Below, piece after piece: positions 6,232 to 56,209 of a stretch of DNA of 64,000 nt. Below the pieces are notes generated by a model. It did not search any database, was not told the origin of the DNA, and saw only the letters and a program-made list of their open reading frames with translations. The stretch is from a virus. Position 1 is the first letter of the stretch, and each line of letters starts with the position of its first letter. The stretch spans positions 20,030-84,029 of IMG/VR virus record IMGVR_UViG_3300017991_000091. One strand, 5' to 3'. The position numbers and the translations under genes are program-made.

Positions 6232-6474
6232 CTACTGAATATTCTCTACCCCAAGAATATGAAATATCTTTTCCGTATTCTTTTCCTTTACTGCTTGTTT
6301 CAATTCATATTTACTTTCATCAGAAAGATCATCAATTGCTCTTCCTAACTCATCTTCATCAAAAGTGGCCAAACTCATTTTATCCAGCAATTTGTCAATC
6401 TTCCGGACCAGACTTTGAGTATCCACTTCCTCTTCCAACTTTTTATTTATATCATTTAAGGTTTCCTCAAACAT
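6232..6474 (-). CDS. Hypothetical helical protein, 80 aa
   Basis: Short, acidic and almost entirely helical, with heptad-like hydrophobic spacing through residues 5-35 (a possible coiled coil). It carries one ESK (DESKYE). One base separates it from the gene upstream and 8 bp from the gene downstream, so it is co-translated with the structural genes. Function unknown. Confidence 0.5.
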   Translation of the reverse strand: MFEETLNDINKKLEEEVDTQSLVRKIDKLLDKMSLATFDEDELGRAIDDLSDESKYELKQAVKEKNTEKIFHILGVENIQ

Positions 6475-19796: not shown

Positions 19797-20292
19797 TGAA
19801 ACTGGTAACATACAAATGAAAAATGGACTGACCTCTATCCTAAGATTTGTTCCAAAACATTTTCTCTGGAATATTCGGACAGCTAAGAACAATAGGAATA
19901 AGAGGAGGATCTTCATTGGATCGGAAAAAGGATTGGTTCCAATTAAAATCACCTCTCAGAGATATCGACTATTTGAGAGAAGCCTTATTTGTGTCTCTTG
20001 TGGAAAAATCGGAAATGTACTAAGTGTCGATCAAAGAGAAACCGAAAATGGGAAACCTCTTTTCCATCTTAATCTCTACCATATTGATGGGGAAGAAATC
20101 ACCTTAATGACAAAAGATCATATTATTCCCAAATCAAAAAGGGGGCCAAATCATCAAGACAATTACCAAGTTATGTGCCAACCCTGTAATCAGAAAAAAG
20201 GAAATAAAACCAAAGAAGAGATAAACCATTACAAAAAGAGGAAGAAAAGAAAAAGACAATCATGCAATGAACTGGTTCTAGTAGGAGCTTAA
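19783..20292 (+). CDS. HNH endonuclease
   Basis: 169 residues. The C-terminal 100 residues hold the HNH core: CVSCG, then TKDHIIPKSKRGPNHQDNYQ and CQPCNQKKGN, with His, Asn and His/Lys catalytic positions and two Cys pairs for zinc. Phage HNH proteins of this type are usually homing or DNA-processing nucleases. It starts by overlapping the zinc-ribbon gene. Free-standing, no intron is evident nearby. Confidence 0.8.
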   Translation: MSPINETGNIQMKNGLTSILRFVPKHFLWNIRTAKNNRNKRRIFIGSEKGLVPIKITSQRYRLFERSLICVSCGKIGNVLSVDQRETENGKPLFHLNLYHIDGEEITLMTKDHIIPKSKRGPNHQDNYQVMCQPCNQKKGNKTKEEINHYKKRKKRKRQSCNELVLVGA

Positions 20293-42166: not shown

Positions 42167-42480
42167 TGCCATATATAAAACCAGAAGAACGAGAATTCTA
42201 TGATAATCTAATCGAGAATATTATAGATCAGATTTTTTTGTTTGGGATTTCTGAATTCGATAGAAATGATTGGAAAGGGCATCTTAACTACATCATTTCC
42301 AGATTGTGTCATGAAGTAATTAAGAAAAGAGGCCTTCGCTACCATACTTGCAACGATGTTATTGGGGTCCTAGAATGTATCAAACAAGAACTCTACCGAA
42401 CTGTGATTGCCCCATATGAGGATAGGAAGAGATCCGAAAATGGTCCAGTTAGTGAATTGGATTTTGTGGAGGATGAGTAA
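42166..42480 (+). CDS. Hypothetical protein, 104 aa
   Basis: Helical (YDNLIENIIDQIFLFG, GHLNYIISRLCHEVIKK, ECIKQELYRTVIAPYED). The pattern resembles small phage proteins that contain a YRT-V-APYE-like motif. It overlaps queE by one base. Function unknown. Confidence 0.5.
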   Translation: MPYIKPEEREFYDNLIENIIDQIFLFGISEFDRNDWKGHLNYIISRLCHEVIKKRGLRYHTCNDVIGVLECIKQELYRTVIAPYEDRKRSENGPVSELDFVEDE

Positions 42481-43199
42481 TGACTAAACTAAACGTACAA
42501 TCTATCTTCCATAGTATAGACGGGGAGATTAATGGTTTTCTTGGGGCGGGACAATTCTCAACTTTTATACGTCTGAAAGGATGTAATTTGCAATGTGCAT
42601 ATTGCGACACAGAATATTCCCAAGAATTCCAACCCTATAATTGGATGACAATCCAAGAAATAATTAATGAAGTTCGATTCCCTAAAATAACAATTACTGG
42701 GGGAGAACCCTTAGAACAACAAAAAGGACTGGAAGCACTTATCATCCAACTTCTATTTTCAAAAGGAATTGAATATACTATTTCTGTCGAAACGAATGGA
42801 TCAATGGTTCCTTCTCTTTTTTGGACAAGAGTACGATATATAGTGGACTTCAAGTTGCATTCGTCCGGTATGTCGGATAAGATGAATCCCGCTGCCTTTG
42901 ATTCCTTGAGAGAAGAAGATGTGATCAAATTTGTGGTTTCCGATTGGGACGACTATGATCAAATGGTTGAACTTGTACAATCTAATCCTCAATGGAAAGC
43001 AAAGACAGCAGTTAGCCCAGCTATACAGATTATACATCCAACTGTTGAATCCGAAGAAGAGTATGTTGGTATTCTTCCAGCCGTTGATTTGGAATGGCCC
43101 AGAAAGTTATTGGACCGGACAATGCAAGATGGGTATGTCAATTCCTTCTCGTTACAAAATCATAAAATTATGTGGCCAGGGACCACTGAAGAAAAATAG
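42480..43199 (+). CDS. queE: 7-carboxy-7-deazaguanine synthase
   Basis: 239 residues. Radical-SAM cysteines Cys35, Cys39 and Cys42 are in GCNLQCAYCDTEY, preceded by SIDGEINGF (typical of QueE) and followed by TITGGEPLEQ and SVETNGS. It makes 7-carboxy-7-deazaguanine, the intermediate before QueC. The substrate, carboxytetrahydropterin, is made by QueD, which is not in the window. Confidence 0.9.
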   Translation: MTKLNVQSIFHSIDGEINGFLGAGQFSTFIRLKGCNLQCAYCDTEYSQEFQPYNWMTIQEIINEVRFPKITITGGEPLEQQKGLEALIIQLLFSKGIEYTISVETNGSMVPSLFWTRVRYIVDFKLHSSGMSDKMNPAAFDSLREEDVIKFVVSDWDDYDQMVELVQSNPQWKAKTAVSPAIQIIHPTVESEEEYVGILPAVDLEWPRKLLDRTMQDGYVNSFSLQNHKIMWPGTTEEK

Positions 43200-44165: not shown

Positions 44166-44831
44166 ATGAATATTTATACTGGTGATCCCTTAGACGGAAT
44201 AAAAGTCAAGAAAACAATTTCGGATGAATTTGGAGTATATCTGGTCAGTAGTGGAAATGATTACCTGGCTTTTCCATTTTCTTCTGCAACAGAGGCAATT
44301 TTTTCCGGAAAAAGGATAGCACAACTCCTTGATGTGCAGTATAATATATCGGACGAGGTAGAATTTTCAGCAGCATATGAACAAAAACAAAAAACAGAAG
44401 TGACGTCCATAAAAGTGGACACGGGAGGATCAAAAATGGCAAAAAAGGCCGGAAACATTCGTAAAGTTGCAAAGGAGATGTTAGAGTCCGGAAAGACTCA
44501 ACAGGAAGTTCTGGATTCCCTTATTCAAAGCTACAAGGATTTGGGAAAGGATGAGAAGTATTCAAAGAGTCGGGCACGTGTAGTCCTTGTGTCTGTTCTG
44601 AAGAAGATGAACCTGTCTGTGGATGAGGGTATCAAGAAGTCCAGGAAGAACAAGAAGGTGGAGACGACAGAGACACCGGAAAGAGTGGAGGAGAAGAAAG
44701 AAACCTCCGCAGAGACGGCGGAAGGAACTGAGATGACACAGGAAGGTTCCAATCCTGCAGAGACGGTAGAAGAGGCGGAAACCGAAGCAGTAGAAACCGA
44801 ACAAGATCAGACGGCAGAAGTGGTTGAGTAA
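44166..44831 (+). CDS. Hypothetical protein with acidic tail; possible internal start
   Basis: 221 residues: residues 1-85 are a beta/alpha domain, 90-150 a basic helical domain (GNIRKVAKEMLESG, SKSRARVVLVSVLKKM), and 160-221 a Glu/Thr-rich tail. A second start, ATG 44436, has an excellent site (GGGAGG, 7-base spacing) and would give a 131-residue product of the helical domain plus tail. The two products, or two fused genes, are possible. Function unknown. Confidence 0.5.
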   Translation: MNIYTGDPLDGIKVKKTISDEFGVYLVSSGNDYLAFPFSSATEAIFSGKRIAQLLDVQYNISDEVEFSAAYEQKQKTEVTSIKVDTGGSKMAKKAGNIRKVAKEMLESGKTQQEVLDSLIQSYKDLGKDEKYSKSRARVVLVSVLKKMNLSVDEGIKKSRKNKKVETTETPERVEEKKETSAETAEGTEMTQEGSNPAETVEEAETEAVETEQDQTAEVVE

Positions 44832-45003
44832 GTGCAAGCCAGCGGAAATAGGATTTGATTACTGGGCATAGGAGGTTCCTTACAAATGACTACTTGAGAG
44901 CCGGAAACGGCTCTTGCCAAATATACTTCCCGCCTAATTAAATATAAACGGGCAAAGAAGGTTCCTTACAAATCATATTGGATGAATTACCTTCCGCCCC
45001 TTT
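44832..45003 (+). ncRNA. Tandem structured RNA elements in the 5' leader of the TerD-like gene
   Basis: Two copies of the 15-mer AGGTTCCTTACAAAT lie at 44873-44887 and 44959-44973. Module 1: outer stem GCAAG/CTTGC (44834-44838 with 44913-44917), CCAG/CTGG (44839-44842 with 44862-44865), and GAGCCG-GAAA-CGGCTC (44898-44913). Module 2: CCCG/CGGG (44929-44932 with 44949-44952) and GAAGGT/ACCTTC (44957-44962 with 44989-44994). The second stem would hide part of the conserved 15-mer. The pattern suits a tandem aptamer or regulatory RNA of unknown ligand. Confidence 0.6.
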
Positions 45004-45015
45004 TTGGAGCAAAAG

Positions 45016-46908
45016 ATGAATGCGAACCAAGCAACTCTACGTCTTTTTAATGCAATTCAGGTAGGAGAAAGGATCTCAGAGAATGGGGACCACGAAAAGT
45101 TCTACGGAAGGATGCTTCAAAATGGATATGTCGTCGATCCACATATTAAGGTAACCGAAGATCTTCTGGACGAAATTGAGGGAATTGTTGGAATATCCGG
45201 GGAAAAGGCCAATTCCTCTTTTCACAAATCCTGGAGGGTTATCCGGGATACCCCCCAAGAAGCTCTTTGGATACAAGCCGCAATACATTATTTGACCACC
45301 TACGGGTTCGAACGGTTAGGAATTTATCAAGAAGAGATAGTCTATATTCCAAGGGAGGAACTTGATCTTCCCAATATGAACGAAGATCTACCTCTGGTAG
45401 TAATTAAAGGAATATCCCGAAAGGAGATCCTTAATAGGATCACTCAACTCGGCCAAGGGATAGCCCTGCATGAAAATACCCTAACGGATATTATGGAAAT
45501 TATCCGATTTAATGAATTTGGTTCTGCTTTTGTCCACAGAATCAAAAATCGAGAATTGAAGATAAGGCTATATGATTACTACCATATTGCTCCCACTGAT
45601 CCGGAAGAGTATTTGAGATATCTAATTCACAAATTGACTGGAGAATCTTTAGTAATTAAGAACGAAAGTCTGATTGAAAAGATCAAACAATCTGACGGTT
45701 ACCATCTGGACAATCTATTAACTTTAGTTCCTTGGAATCTGGCATCAATTTTCTATAGATATAAACCACCTTTTCTGGCCATGAAATCAATTTCAGGAAA
45801 TAAGAGATTCTTCAACCGGCTACGAAGGAGTGCAAGGAAGATCCATCGTCCTCTCCTTCCGGATTACTTAAATAATATAACCGCATCCATTAAAAGGGAT
45901 CAATTGGCAAAGGATCAACCTTTATTCCGGAAGCTTCAAAGAGCCACTATTTTCAGAAAGATACGGTTGGCACAGGCTCTAAAATTCCGATTACAAGGAA
46001 GTAAATCAATAGTTTACCGGATCCGGAATGGTAGAGGATGGATTGACGATTTTAATTGGCCGGAGGATAAAAGAGAAGAAACCCAAGGAGTACTTAATAT
46101 AGTAATTCGATCAATTGTTCAGGATATTAAAAAGAATGTGGAAGGAAAGACCATTCTTATTCCCAAGGGAATTCATTATACACTCCCGGCAACTGAAAAA
46201 CAATTCACCGGATTTCTTCCTACTGGAAGTAGTATATCAGTAGATGAGGATATGATTGTAGGAATTCATTGGTTCAATACTAAAGGACATCGAATTGATT
46301 TAGATCTTTCCATAATCTCTGCAGGAATGGGGAAAATCGGGTGGAATTCTAATTATCGAAATGAAATGGGTAATGTGCTCTTCTCTGGAGATATGGCAGA
46401 TGCACCAAAACCAAATGGAGCTTCCGAATTATTTTACCTGAAGAAGGATATTTCAGAGCCCGTTTTGATGTTAGTAAACTATTATAATTATACTTTTACT
46501 AATGGTGATCCCGTTCCCACAAAAATATTGGTAGCAAAAGAAAGAGCCACAAGGAGAAATTTTGAACATAACTACATGGTAGATCCCAATAATATTCTTC
46601 TTTCAGCAAATATAGAAATGAGCCAGTCACAATCTGTTTTGGGATTGATTACAAATATGGATGGATACAATCGTTTCTATTTTTCCAATATTTCGTATGG
46701 GACTTCAAATGTTTCTGGCTCAGGAGAATCATCTGGAAAAATGACAGAATATCTAAAGAACGATCTACTATCCAGATTGGATCTGAAAAGTACATTAATT
46801 CAAGCAGGTGCCATTGTAGTTGATGTTCCCCCGGAGGATGGAAAAGTTGATATTGATCTTTCACCGAATGGTTTAAGCAAAGATAGTATAATTAATCTTT
46901 TGCAGTAA
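45016..46908 (+). CDS. Large protein with TerD-like C-terminal domain
   Basis: 630 residues from ATG 45016, 7 bases after GGAG. Residues 1-350 are mostly helical with no known motif. Residues of about 370-520 resemble a TerD-type fold: IVGIHWFNTKGHRIDLDLSII, GKIGWNSNYRNEMGNVLFSGDM and APKPNGASELFYL. TerD proteins bind calcium and are linked to stress and phage resistance in bacteria. The call is by pattern only. It follows the tandem RNA elements and precedes the aminotransferase. Confidence 0.5.
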   Translation: MNANQATLRLFNAIQVGERISENGDHEKFYGRMLQNGYVVDPHIKVTEDLLDEIEGIVGISGEKANSSFHKSWRVIRDTPQEALWIQAAIHYLTTYGFERLGIYQEEIVYIPREELDLPNMNEDLPLVVIKGISRKEILNRITQLGQGIALHENTLTDIMEIIRFNEFGSAFVHRIKNRELKIRLYDYYHIAPTDPEEYLRYLIHKLTGESLVIKNESLIEKIKQSDGYHLDNLLTLVPWNLASIFYRYKPPFLAMKSISGNKRFFNRLRRSARKIHRPLLPDYLNNITASIKRDQLAKDQPLFRKLQRATIFRKIRLAQALKFRLQGSKSIVYRIRNGRGWIDDFNWPEDKREETQGVLNIVIRSIVQDIKKNVEGKTILIPKGIHYTLPATEKQFTGFLPTGSSISVDEDMIVGIHWFNTKGHRIDLDLSIISAGMGKIGWNSNYRNEMGNVLFSGDMADAPKPNGASELFYLKKDISEPVLMLVNYYNYTFTNGDPVPTKILVAKERATRRNFEHNYMVDPNNILLSANIEMSQSQSVLGLITNMDGYNRFYFSNISYGTSNVSGSGESSGKMTEYLKNDLLSRLDLKSTLIQAGAIVVDVPPEDGKVDIDLSPNGLSKDSIINLLQ

Positions 46909-48362: not shown

Positions 48363-49010
48363 ATGAAAATTGTCATAACTCTTAGCGGTGGAGCAGATAG
48401 CACCTTGGCCGCCTTAAAAATGAAAGAAAGATGGCCAGACGCAGAATACTACCCCGTCTTTATCGACTATGGCCAAATCTGTGCAGATCAGGAAAAGAAA
48501 ACCGCCTTTGATCTGGCCAGAAAACTGGACTTCCTTGGGCTTCACATGATTACTCTTGGTAAGATCTGGTCTGGGGGTGGTATGATTGATGGTGAGAGCG
48601 AAGATAATGATGTCTATACCCCCGTCCGAAATCTGGCCCTCCTAAGTTGCACAATAGCTTACGCCGAATCAATTGAAGCCGATATTGTAGTTACTGGAAG
48701 CAAGGGCCATTCAAAGATCCTATCTGAAGAACATAGCTACTATGATAGCACCATTCCCTTTGCTAAGATGATGGAATCCATCTGGTATTACGCCTCAGAG
48801 AACAAAAGGAGAGTTCAAGTTGTTCCTATCCTGGCCGAAGGCCGAAAAGAAACAATGACAAAAGAAGAGGTATATAAAGAGCTTCTACAGTATAATATTC
48901 TGTATAAGGATACTTGGAGTTGTTTTCAGGGAGGACGAGACGAATGTGGTCGTTGTTCCAATTGCCTGGAAAAGGACCGAATATTTCAGAAATTATCCGA
49001 AGGGGAATAA
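48363..49010 (+). CDS. queC: 7-cyano-7-deazaguanine synthase
   Basis: 215 residues. The PP-loop SGGADST is at residues 8-14, and the C-terminal zinc site is SCFQGG-CGRCSNC. YTPVRNL and the LSEEHSYYDS region fit QueC. It converts 7-carboxy-7-deazaguanine to preQ0 using ATP and ammonia, giving the base that DpdA would put in DNA. Confidence 0.9.
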   Translation: MKIVITLSGGADSTLAALKMKERWPDAEYYPVFIDYGQICADQEKKTAFDLARKLDFLGLHMITLGKIWSGGGMIDGESEDNDVYTPVRNLALLSCTIAYAESIEADIVVTGSKGHSKILSEEHSYYDSTIPFAKMMESIWYYASENKRRVQVVPILAEGRKETMTKEEVYKELLQYNILYKDTWSCFQGGRDECGRCSNCLEKDRIFQKLSEGE

Positions 49011-53348: not shown

Positions 53349-53580
53349 ATTTCAGATAAATAGACACTCGGATTGTTTTAATCCAAAAAATGGATTCGCA
53401 AATATGCCTGCAGAATATATGGGGCATTTCTTTAACGGAGGAAGTGAATATGATATGTTAAGTGGTCCTTGTTCTTGTGGTGCTTGGCATACCCAGGAGG
53501 AATGGCCAGAACAACTCCAGTTGGAAGTATTTGGATTCATCTCAGAAAAAGAGTCCGGTACAAAACGAAGATATCAATAA
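53341..53580 (+). CDS. Conserved small hypothetical protein, 79 aa
   Basis: Has GPCSCGAWHTQEEWP, a Cys-rich knuckle, between aromatic segments. Starts within the previous gene and ends 4 bases before the polymerase start. No known function. Confidence 0.5.
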   Translation: MDEFQINRHSDCFNPKNGFANMPAEYMGHFFNGGSEYDMLSGPCSCGAWHTQEEWPEQLQLEVFGFISEKESGTKRRYQ

Positions 53581-53584
53581 TCTT

Positions 53585-56209
53585 ATGGCAAAACAAAAAG
53601 CATTCTTTCTATCTCCCCTTGAAATATATCAGCAAGAGCATCCCGAACTTTTCGAGAAGAAGAAAAGGTCTACTTCCTCTAAACCAAGAAAGGAGAAGAT
53701 CTACAACTGTGACTCTTGTGGATTAAAATCCAAATGTAAGTCCCCTAAAATGCAAAGATATGGAAAGGGAGGAAAGGGCATTCTTATTGTCGGTCTTTGC
53801 CCTGGAAGATCGGAGGATAGGTATGGTATCCCCTTTGTTGGTGCTTCCGGAAAGTTCCTGCGAAGAGCCTTGTCCTACGTAGGAATAGATATGGACAAGG
53901 ATTGTATCAGAACTAATATAGTTCAATGCTTTCCTGGACTGGACAAAAAAGGAAGGGACGTAGCTCCTACAAATGATCAGATTTTGTGTTGTTCATCCAA
54001 TCTTCAGAAGGATATTGAAGAAGTAAAACCCAAACTGATTATTTCTCTTGGGACTAAAGCAATTCAATCCCTTGTGAATACGAAAGGACTATCTTCCTTC
54101 ACTGCATCTGGAACCCATGGATTGGTCTTCCCAATCCAAAAGTACAATTCTTGGGTGGGGTGTTCATATCATCCTTCCTTCTTCTGCAGGCAAAAGAAAG
54201 ACAAAGGCCTAAAAAATGATGACATAGTCTTCATCAATGACATGGCTGATATAATCTCTTTCCTTGACGAGCCACTGCCGAAACCGTTTACCGAAGAAGG
54301 AAACGAGTTAATAACCGATTATCAAGAGGCCATAGATATCTTAGAATATATGTCGGCATCCGAATCCCCGGTTTGTCATGACTTTGAAACAAATATTCTT
54401 TCTCCTTACGAAAAAGAGTCCAAAATCTTAACCGTATCTATTACCAATGAGGTGGACTCTGCTGCTTGTATTCCCATTAATTTCCTTCAGGATGGAAAAA
54501 GGATCTTTTCTGATGATCAGTTATCTAAAATAACGGGGGCATTTTCTCGGTTCCTTAAAAGCGATGCACCAAAAGTAGTCCAAAATTATTATATGGAGGA
54601 ACTTTGGGGAAGAGTTTTCTTTGGCACATCCATGAATAATTTTATCCACGATACAATGGTTACCGCCCATGTTCTAAATTGTCAAAGGGGAACTACTGGT
54701 CTGGGATTTCAGGCATATCAGTTAACCGGACATGATTACAAGAAAATGGTTGACGTGGTTGACCTACAAAAGGAGACCTTAGAGGATACTTCAAACTATA
54801 ATAATTGGGATACCAGGCACACTTTAAATTCTTACTATGACCAACAAAGAAGACTTTCTATTGACCCGGAAAGAAGTAGATTTAATAATTGGTTAACCTC
54901 TTGTCTTCCGTGTCTCGCAAATCTAAAGCATCGTGGAATATTAATTGATCAGAAGATGATGATGGAGCTTTATGATCAATTTACTGAAGAGGGTGAAGAA
55001 CTACTAGAAAAAATTAGGAATACAGATAAGGTCAAAGAGTTCGAATCCATTGAGGATAGTAAAGGAAAAACCAAGAAATTTAATCCAAATTCTGGTCCTC
55101 AGATAGGAAAGATTATATATGATTTATGGAAGGAACCCATCCTTCAGGAAACAGAAAAGACGAAGAAAGGAAAAACGGACGAACCCGCATTAGTAGAGGT
55201 GTCCGGAAAAACCAAGAATGATAACGTCCGAAGATTCATCTCTAACATTCTTCGGTATCGAAAGTGTGGTAGCATACCTAAAAGAGTAAAAACATATAAG
55301 AAGTTCCTTGACCCAAATTCCCGAATCCATCCTACCTTCAATATGAATATTGCCGCTACATACCGGAGTTCAGCGAATGATCCATCCGTACAAAACATAT
55401 ATAAACATGACGAAGAGCTTCAGGTTTTCCGTAAGATTATCATTCCCAGACCGGGAAATTTATTATTGCAGGTAGATTATTCCGGAATGGAAGTGTGTGG
55501 CATTGCAATGATGTCCAAGGATTCAGAACTGGTAAATCAACTCCATAAAATGCGGCAGTGGGATCTGGAACATCCTAATAAAATAAATCCGTGGGATACC
55601 CACAGAAGATGGGCTGTCCTACTATACTCCAAGGCTCTGGAAGAAATTACTAAAGATGATAGATACTACTCTAAGAACGGGTTTATTTTTCCCTCCTTCT
55701 ATGGATCTCAACCTAAGGCGATGGTACGGTATGAGGGGTTCCGAGGAAGAGTATCTCAGGAACATATTGCTAAAGTTTTTGCTGACTTTTGGAAGGAATA
55801 TCCAGATGTTCGAGAATGGCAGAATGATCAAATAAAGTACTATAATGAGAATGGTTGTTATGTGAGTCCTCTTGGATGTAAACGTCCGGGTCCTCTAAGT
55901 TATTATCAATTATTCAATAATAATATTCAAGGATTGGCTTTTCATCTACTCTTAGATGCCTTACAAAGAATTGATGATGAGATGGTTCAAAGAGGAATGG
56001 AATCTCAAGCTTTTTTGGAAACCCACGATTCAATTGATTTTGATGTGGTTCCTGAGGAATTCGAAGATCTGGTTCAATTATCCAATGAGATACTCTTAGC
56101 GAAACGTTTCGATTGGCAATGTGTTCCATTAGCAGTCGAGTGGGAAGCCAGTTGTACTAATTGGTATGAGTTGTCCTCAAAAACTTTTAAGGAGTTGATG
56201 GCAGTATGA
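53585..56209 (+). CDS. DN​A polymerase A with N-terminal uracil-glycosylase-like domain
   Basis: 874 residues from ATG 53585. Residues 45-215 are a UDG-family domain (CDSCGLKSKC, GLCPGRSEDRYGIPFVGASG and CSYHPSFF). Residues 250-400 hold a 3'-5' exonuclease (CHDFETN). Then polymerase motifs: LLQVDYSGMEVCG (motif A), SFYGSQPKAM near a Lys/Arg helix (motif B) and ETHDSIDF (motif C). Such UDG-Pol fusions occur in SPO1-type phages. No 5' nuclease domain; the separate gene at 27816 supplies it. The UDG-like part may be catalytic or structural. Confidence 0.85.
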   Translation: MAKQKAFFLSPLEIYQQEHPELFEKKKRSTSSKPRKEKIYNCDSCGLKSKCKSPKMQRYGKGGKGILIVGLCPGRSEDRYGIPFVGASGKFLRRALSYVGIDMDKDCIRTNIVQCFPGLDKKGRDVAPTNDQILCCSSNLQKDIEEVKPKLIISLGTKAIQSLVNTKGLSSFTASGTHGLVFPIQKYNSWVGCSYHPSFFCRQKKDKGLKNDDIVFINDMADIISFLDEPLPKPFTEEGNELITDYQEAIDILEYMSASESPVCHDFETNILSPYEKESKILTVSITNEVDSAACIPINFLQDGKRIFSDDQLSKITGAFSRFLKSDAPKVVQNYYMEELWGRVFFGTSMNNFIHDTMVTAHVLNCQRGTTGLGFQAYQLTGHDYKKMVDVVDLQKETLEDTSNYNNWDTRHTLNSYYDQQRRLSIDPERSRFNNWLTSCLPCLANLKHRGILIDQKMMMELYDQFTEEGEELLEKIRNTDKVKEFESIEDSKGKTKKFNPNSGPQIGKIIYDLWKEPILQETEKTKKGKTDEPALVEVSGKTKNDNVRRFISNILRYRKCGSIPKRVKTYKKFLDPNSRIHPTFNMNIAATYRSSANDPSVQNIYKHDEELQVFRKIIIPRPGNLLLQVDYSGMEVCGIAMMSKDSELVNQLHKMRQWDLEHPNKINPWDTHRRWAVLLYSKALEEITKDDRYYSKNGFIFPSFYGSQPKAMVRYEGFRGRVSQEHIAKVFADFWKEYPDVREWQNDQIKYYNENGCYVSPLGCKRPGPLSYYQLFNNNIQGLAFHLLLDALQRIDDEMVQRGMESQAFLETHDSIDFDVVPEEFEDLVQLSNEILLAKRFDWQCVPLAVEWEASCTNWYELSSKTFKELMAV

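Follow-up and report, generated by a model that had tools for sequence, protein, structure and literature searches.

The stretch analysed here (the window) comprises 64,000 nucleotides (nt) of viral DNA, positions 20,030 to 84,029 of IMG/VR virus record IMGVR_UViG_3300017991_000091. An intergenic stretch at 44832–45015, between an open reading frame (ORF) with an acidic tail (44166–44831) and a 630-aa ORF (45016–46908), contains two copies of a structured RNA element. An earlier note on this sequence had described two copies of a 15-mer, 86 nt apart, within tandem structured elements that it could not match to a known class, and had proposed a riboswitch controlling a downstream TerD-like gene. 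The 15-mer, AGGTTCCTTACAAAT, is indeed present in exact form at 44873–44887 and 44959–44973 (+) with a spacing of 86 nt, and no other exact copy was found whether the window or the 84-kb record was scanned. Both modules share one fold, in which P1 (GGGC/GCCY), an AWA/C internal loop, P2 (GRAGGU/ACYUYC) and UCCU are followed by a variable segment that we call the guest. The minimum-energy fold of each module has a P1 of 4 base pairs (bp), a 3x1 internal loop and a P2 of 6 bp. These folds were more stable than those of dinucleotide shuffles (z of −3.5 for module 1 and −2.3 for module 2), and a compensatory change in P2, from G-C to A-U, already separates the two modules. The features of the locus are as follows, with scores from the covariance model R1 of the element family described below.

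44864..44935 (+): element 1 with its handle and guest; cmsearch R1 33.0 bits, E 1.8e-7; minimum-energy fold identical
44864–44867 / 44932–44935 (+): element 1 P1, GGGC / GCCT
44868–44870 / 44931 (+): element 1 internal loop, ATA / C
44871–44876 / 44925–44930 (+): element 1 P2, GGAGGT / ACTTCC, with TCCT at 44877–44880
44896..44919 (+): element 1 guest, GAGAGCC-GGAAAC-GGCTCTT-G-CCA; 7-bp hairpin, then G and CCA
44950..44999 (+): element 2; cmsearch R1 41.1 bits, E 4.9e-10
44950–44953 / 44996–44999 (+): element 2 P1, GGGC / GCCC
44954–44956 / 44995 (+): element 2 internal loop, AAA / C
44957–44962 / 44989–44994 (+): element 2 P2, GAAGGT / ACCTTC, with TCCT at 44963–44966
44967–44988 (+): element 2 guest, without a stable fold
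45006..45009 (+): GGAG, likely ribosome-binding site from the sequence, 6 nt past element 2
45016..46908 (+): 630-aa protein, N-terminal helical repeats (residues 1–382) and C-terminal TerD fold; AlphaFold2 predicted local distance difference test score 91

Element 2 ends 16 nt from the start codon of the 630-aa ORF. The outline of the folds in the earlier note agreed with the minimum-energy structures, except that the GAAA hairpin of module 1 has 8 bp rather than 6, and that P2 takes in the first bases of the 15-mer instead of masking it. The 15-mer is composed of the 3' part of a P2 strand, UCCU and the start of the guest. Exact matches to it in viral contigs (39 in all) lay in unrelated contexts, mostly coding, and the signal therefore resides in the structure and not in the identity of the 15-mer; the conserved unit consists of the structure together with (G)UUCCU. 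Comparison of the window with Rfam at gathering and permissive thresholds matched no family, in keeping with the absence of a known class. The guest of element 1 is suggestive of a tRNA acceptor microhelix, with an 8-bp GAAA hairpin as an alternative reading. Guests consisting of a hairpin followed by G and CCA were found in 4 of 148 copies compared to 0.4 expected in shuffles, a modest signal that was recognized post hoc.

A tblastn search with the 630-aa protein identified Synechococcus phages S-CRM01 and S-CBWM1 and the gut phage Phass-1 at 27–31% identity. Querying viral contigs with the single protein found nothing, whereas a profile built from it and the three phage homologues succeeded, yielding 40 viral loci and 33 genome-assembly loci, the latter including Asgard archaeal, Chloroflexota, Desulfobacterales and Selenomonadaceae sequences; some of these records are mutually redundant. 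A DNA-level similarity search in phages returned noise only. The elements at these loci follow one plan: P1 (GGC/GCC), a 3x1 internal loop (AWA/C), P2 (RRRRGU/ACYYYY), UCCU and a guest. AU-rich linkers connect the invariant handle (P1, the AWA/C loop, P2 and UCCU) to the guest, and only the 3x1 loop and UCCU are conserved besides the helices. A descriptor scan of up to 1.5 kb of upstream sequence identified 134 copies on the strand of the gene and 1 on the opposite strand, while altered motifs gave numbers near zero. As the descriptor imposes pairing, we carried out a cross-validation with sites picked by one helix alone. When sites were selected by UUCCU and P2 only, the C residue and a complementary P1 were present in 121 of 137; conversely, P2 was present in 116 of 134 sites selected by P1 only. 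The reverse strand, gene interiors and shuffles gave 0 or nearly 0. In a set of 58 trimmed cores, 98.3% of cells were paired, with 169 double-sided changes and 9 of the 10 pairs changing on both sides, and the covariation score was 0.80 compared to at most 0.18 in slid registers. Because the descriptor selected these cores, the independent test of pairing is the cross-validation. The earlier note had named a lack of covarying pairs in homologous leaders, or random recurrence of the 15-mer, as findings that would speak against it; covarying pairs are present in the homologous leaders, whereas the 15-mer does recur at random elsewhere. Covariance model R1 detected both known modules in the window and nothing else. 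From these data we conclude that the two modules are copies of one element, belonging to a family that is absent from Rfam. Two other readings of the element were considered and rejected: only 24 of 148 copies had a T-tract after P1', contrary to a terminator, and by inspection P2 begins with Watson-Crick pairs rather than the sheared G-A pairs of a kink-turn. We found no paper on the handle RNA, or on TerD domains tied to such RNAs, in the one open-access library searched; a prior description elsewhere is possible.

Model R1 recovered 147 copies, every one on the strand of the gene (+). They are spread over 67 of the 72 homologue loci, and two of the five loci without a handle lacked upstream sequence. 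Loci with both handle and gene span phages, Asgard and other archaeal contigs, and bacteria. Among 200 genomes from a single phylum that served as a control, the sole carrier of a handle was the genome that also carries the gene. The gene sits within tRNA clusters in S-CRM01 and S-CBWM1, and in S-CRM01 it is directly preceded by five tandem elements with this architecture. On the bacterial Venteria chromosome the unit is isolated among housekeeping genes, so the RNA and the protein look self-sufficient, which suggests that together they form the whole system. No RtcB or RNA ligase was present among 20 flanking proteins tested in cellular genomes, and PADLOC reported no defence family. At one Ktedonobacter racemifer locus (L096:5700–7548), the homologous gene is broken by a TGA codon and a frame break while the upstream elements persist.

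The start codon of the 630-aa ORF, ATG at 45016, is consistent with the N-termini of the homologues. Its C-terminal domain matched TerD structure 3ibz with a Z score of 12.5 (2.7 Å over 148 residues), as well as 2qz7 and 2kxt. Membership of the TerD fold was borne out by a Foldseek E of ~1e-5 and VIA Z scores of 9.4–12.5 to solved TerD structures, so the TerD-like assignment of the downstream gene was correct. Acidic residues D428, D430 and D459 are invariant across 49 homologues. The domain shares its fold with the TerD tellurium-resistance proteins but is fused to a helical domain of 380 residues, and no Ter operon was seen near the gene. Alignment with hhalign to the MXAN_6230/SCO0854 family gave a probability of 98.1% over 560 columns, which span the greater part of the protein and take in its TerD domain, while the profile of that family applied directly scored 31.8 bits, below the curated cut-off of 600. 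By profile–profile comparison only, we thus take the protein to be homologous to the uncharacterised MXAN_6230/SCO0854 family. It lacks the RING-like insert of the RING-domain members (NCBIfam NF041916), and a search of the ~1-kb flanks of five cellular MXAN_6230/SCO0854 loci turned up no handle.

Many of the guests contain recognizable parts of tRNA. Among 164 distinct guests we identified 29 T-arms, 22 anticodon arms and 20 D-arms, compared to shuffle expectations of 1.0, 3.0 and 1.3, respectively, for the same guests. At seven loci (L087, L088, L089, L047, L052, L090 and L086) the Rfam tRNA model stretches over 112–116 nt because the handle hairpin lies inside the anticodon arm. In other copies the handle surrounds a permuted tRNA, in which the 3' half is followed by an acceptor that frequently ends in a UUCG or other tetraloop cap, and then by the 5' half; some of these permuted tRNAs encode CCA. 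One phage (L150) has handles around whole tRNAs that end in CCA and have the anticodon loop swapped for GAAA or GCAA. At position 6269 of the same phage the handle replaces the D and anticodon arms while the acceptor/T minihelix remains, and at 1170 and 2532 the guest consists of a D-arm plus an anticodon arm. A handle element of Phass-1, a code-15 phage, contains a tRNA with a CTA anticodon (L153:1–3001, reverse strand). A further over-long tRNA match of 121 nt, possibly another handle insertion, was noted in a phage tRNA cluster (L086:13025–13145).

This arrangement resembles the YrlA RNAs that accompany Ro60 (Rsr). The YrlA consensus (Rfam RF02553) is a two-part stem around a T-arm, a capped acceptor and a D-arm, and the permuted handle elements have the same plan, including the internal loop and the permuted order. 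At both kinds of loci the RNAs adjoin a gene for a helical-repeat protein, RNA-binding in the case of Ro60 and probably so in that of the handle. A stem carrying a tRNA-like module beside a protein gene is thus the layout of both. The handle differs in its sequence, with an AWA/C loop and UUCCU unlike the Y-RNA motif and no sequence in common, and in its partner, which has a TerD domain and not TROVE, while Ro60 has a vWA domain. Unlike in YrlA, most handle guests are small, and others are whole tRNAs or halves of tRNAs. The YrlA covariance model (E limit 5 to 10) found no match on the element stretches scanned; on one locus, L154, it gave two sub-threshold matches of 24.7 and 23.4 bits (gathering 69) that overlap ordinary tRNAs. 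Ro60/TROVE identity of the protein had been the first idea, and it was abandoned when hhalign against the real Rsr profile returned a probability of 0.2%; Pfam TROVE matched none of 49 members. Structural comparison to Rsr (2nvo) gave a Z score of only 3.9, which decides neither way. By analogy, then, the system would work like a Y ribonucleoprotein (Y-RNP), without detectable homology in RNA or protein. In Chloroflexota, rsr loci (L130:2284–3420 on the reverse strand, L125, L123 and L126) have tandem tRNA-like Y RNAs upstream, in which the anticodon arm holds the Y stem. These RNAs are below the Rfam gathering score for YrlA and were missed by ARAGORN.

The computational evidence establishes the family together with its pairing, gene linkage and tRNA content, as well as the fold of the protein, and several explanations can be offered for these findings. 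The best, which we hold with about even confidence, is that these are Y-RNA-like tRNA-mimic RNAs bound by the helical-repeat/TerD protein. The association of handle and gene argues that the handle is probably the binding site of the adjacent protein. As in the Ro60/YrlA Y-RNP, the protein-bound handle stem would display the guest, often a tRNA or a piece of one. The guests may well be tRNA mimics that recruit or distract tRNA enzymes, and in phages they could tentatively be seen as decoys against tRNA-targeting host defences; phage tRNAs are reported to evade such defences (PMC10264068, PMC11555353). Binding to the promoter-distal copy would let the protein repress its own translation, and autoregulation of this kind is a reasonable expectation, about as strong as that of mimicry. 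Four observations weigh against the Y-RNA-like explanation. The N-terminal domain alone had no clear match in the PDB (best Z 6.7), which does not make its fold new; similarity between the protein and Ro60 could not be detected; about three quarters of the guests, including the second in the window, contain no tRNA part by strict patterns; and splicing explains the restoration of anticodon arms, described below, at least as well.

When handle and linkers are removed, 10 of 20 testable tRNA-like cases regain an exact 5-7-5 anticodon arm that has U33 and a purine at 37, compared to 0.13 expected. Various anticodons are involved, and three more cases, missed by the D-arm finder, restore by eye. 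For most tRNAs containing a handle, an ARAGORN grid placed the best scores at comparable cut positions. The restored arms could reflect splicing, or insertion into real tRNAs that keeps the anticodon arm within a mimic. Were it splicing, the handle would be a very small intron core, with cuts a few nt before P2' and ~10–12 nt after P2 and the ends joined, producing functional tRNAs from intron-containing and permuted genes, some with their encoded CCA, while the remaining copies would yield small circular RNAs. Anticodon-arm insertions and permuted halves likewise occur in archaeal and algal intron-containing and permuted tRNA genes, although handles show no bulge-helix-bulge by inspection, their acceptors are often capped and most are without a tRNA. 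Many permuted tRNAs have a tetraloop-closed acceptor and would not be chargeable, some guests are not tRNAs once the handle is removed (as at 6269 of L150, without D and anticodon arms), whole tRNAs inside a handle can carry a GNRA tetraloop in place of the anticodon loop, the majority of guests would make exons too short to be of use, and the cut positions vary. Because the capped acceptors, non-tRNA guests, tRNAs lacking anticodon loops and majority of short guests speak against a general role in splicing, we rank mimicry above splicing and consider the latter unlikely. The more specific proposal, that the handle is a previously unknown class of tiny intron excised, whether or not the adjacent protein takes part, to give functional or circular tRNAs in phages, archaea and bacteria, is slightly less probable again.

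Purely cis autoregulation, in which the protein would act on its own leader in the manner of ribosomal-protein leaders, with the tRNA pieces as chance passengers, would fit the placement of many copies: at 26 of 55 loci no more than 30 nt separate the end of the last element from the start codon, tandem copies are mostly 10–20 nt apart, and element 2 of the window ends just before GGAG. However, six copies in Phass-1 lie downstream of the gene, ~3.2–3.6 kb past its start, further copies are dispersed among tRNA genes at distances of up to 22 kb, and the tRNA parts are far above chance, with anticodon loops and CCA often kept. We regard this explanation, too, as unlikely, on a par with splicing. 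The metabolite riboswitch for the TerD-like gene put forward in the earlier note drew on tandem structured leader elements without an Rfam class; we now consider it very improbable, since copies occur outside leaders, tRNAs or pieces of them frequently make up the variable part, no aptamer-like pocket is conserved beyond the 3x1 loop and UCCU, and the associated gene is always of one family, with a function in neither biosynthesis nor transport.

If the Y-RNA-like explanation is true, the handle elements would constitute a second Y-RNA-like system beside Ro60/YrlA, with another handle and another protein, across phages, archaea and bacteria. It would also provide an RNA partner and a testable function for an uncharacterised family of TerD proteins, and a natural library of tRNA mimics (without an anticodon loop, without a D/anticodon half or with the anticodon arm only). 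The finding would then bear on the abundance of tRNA-related sequence in large phages and on the struggle between phage and host over tRNAs.

Elsewhere in the window, QueE-like and QueC genes flank the region (42480–43199 and 48363–49010) and point to 7-deazaguanine chemistry in this phage. A large ORF at 53462–56209 appears, from reading its translation by eye, to encode a uracil-DNA-glycosylase-type domain fused to DNA polymerase I.
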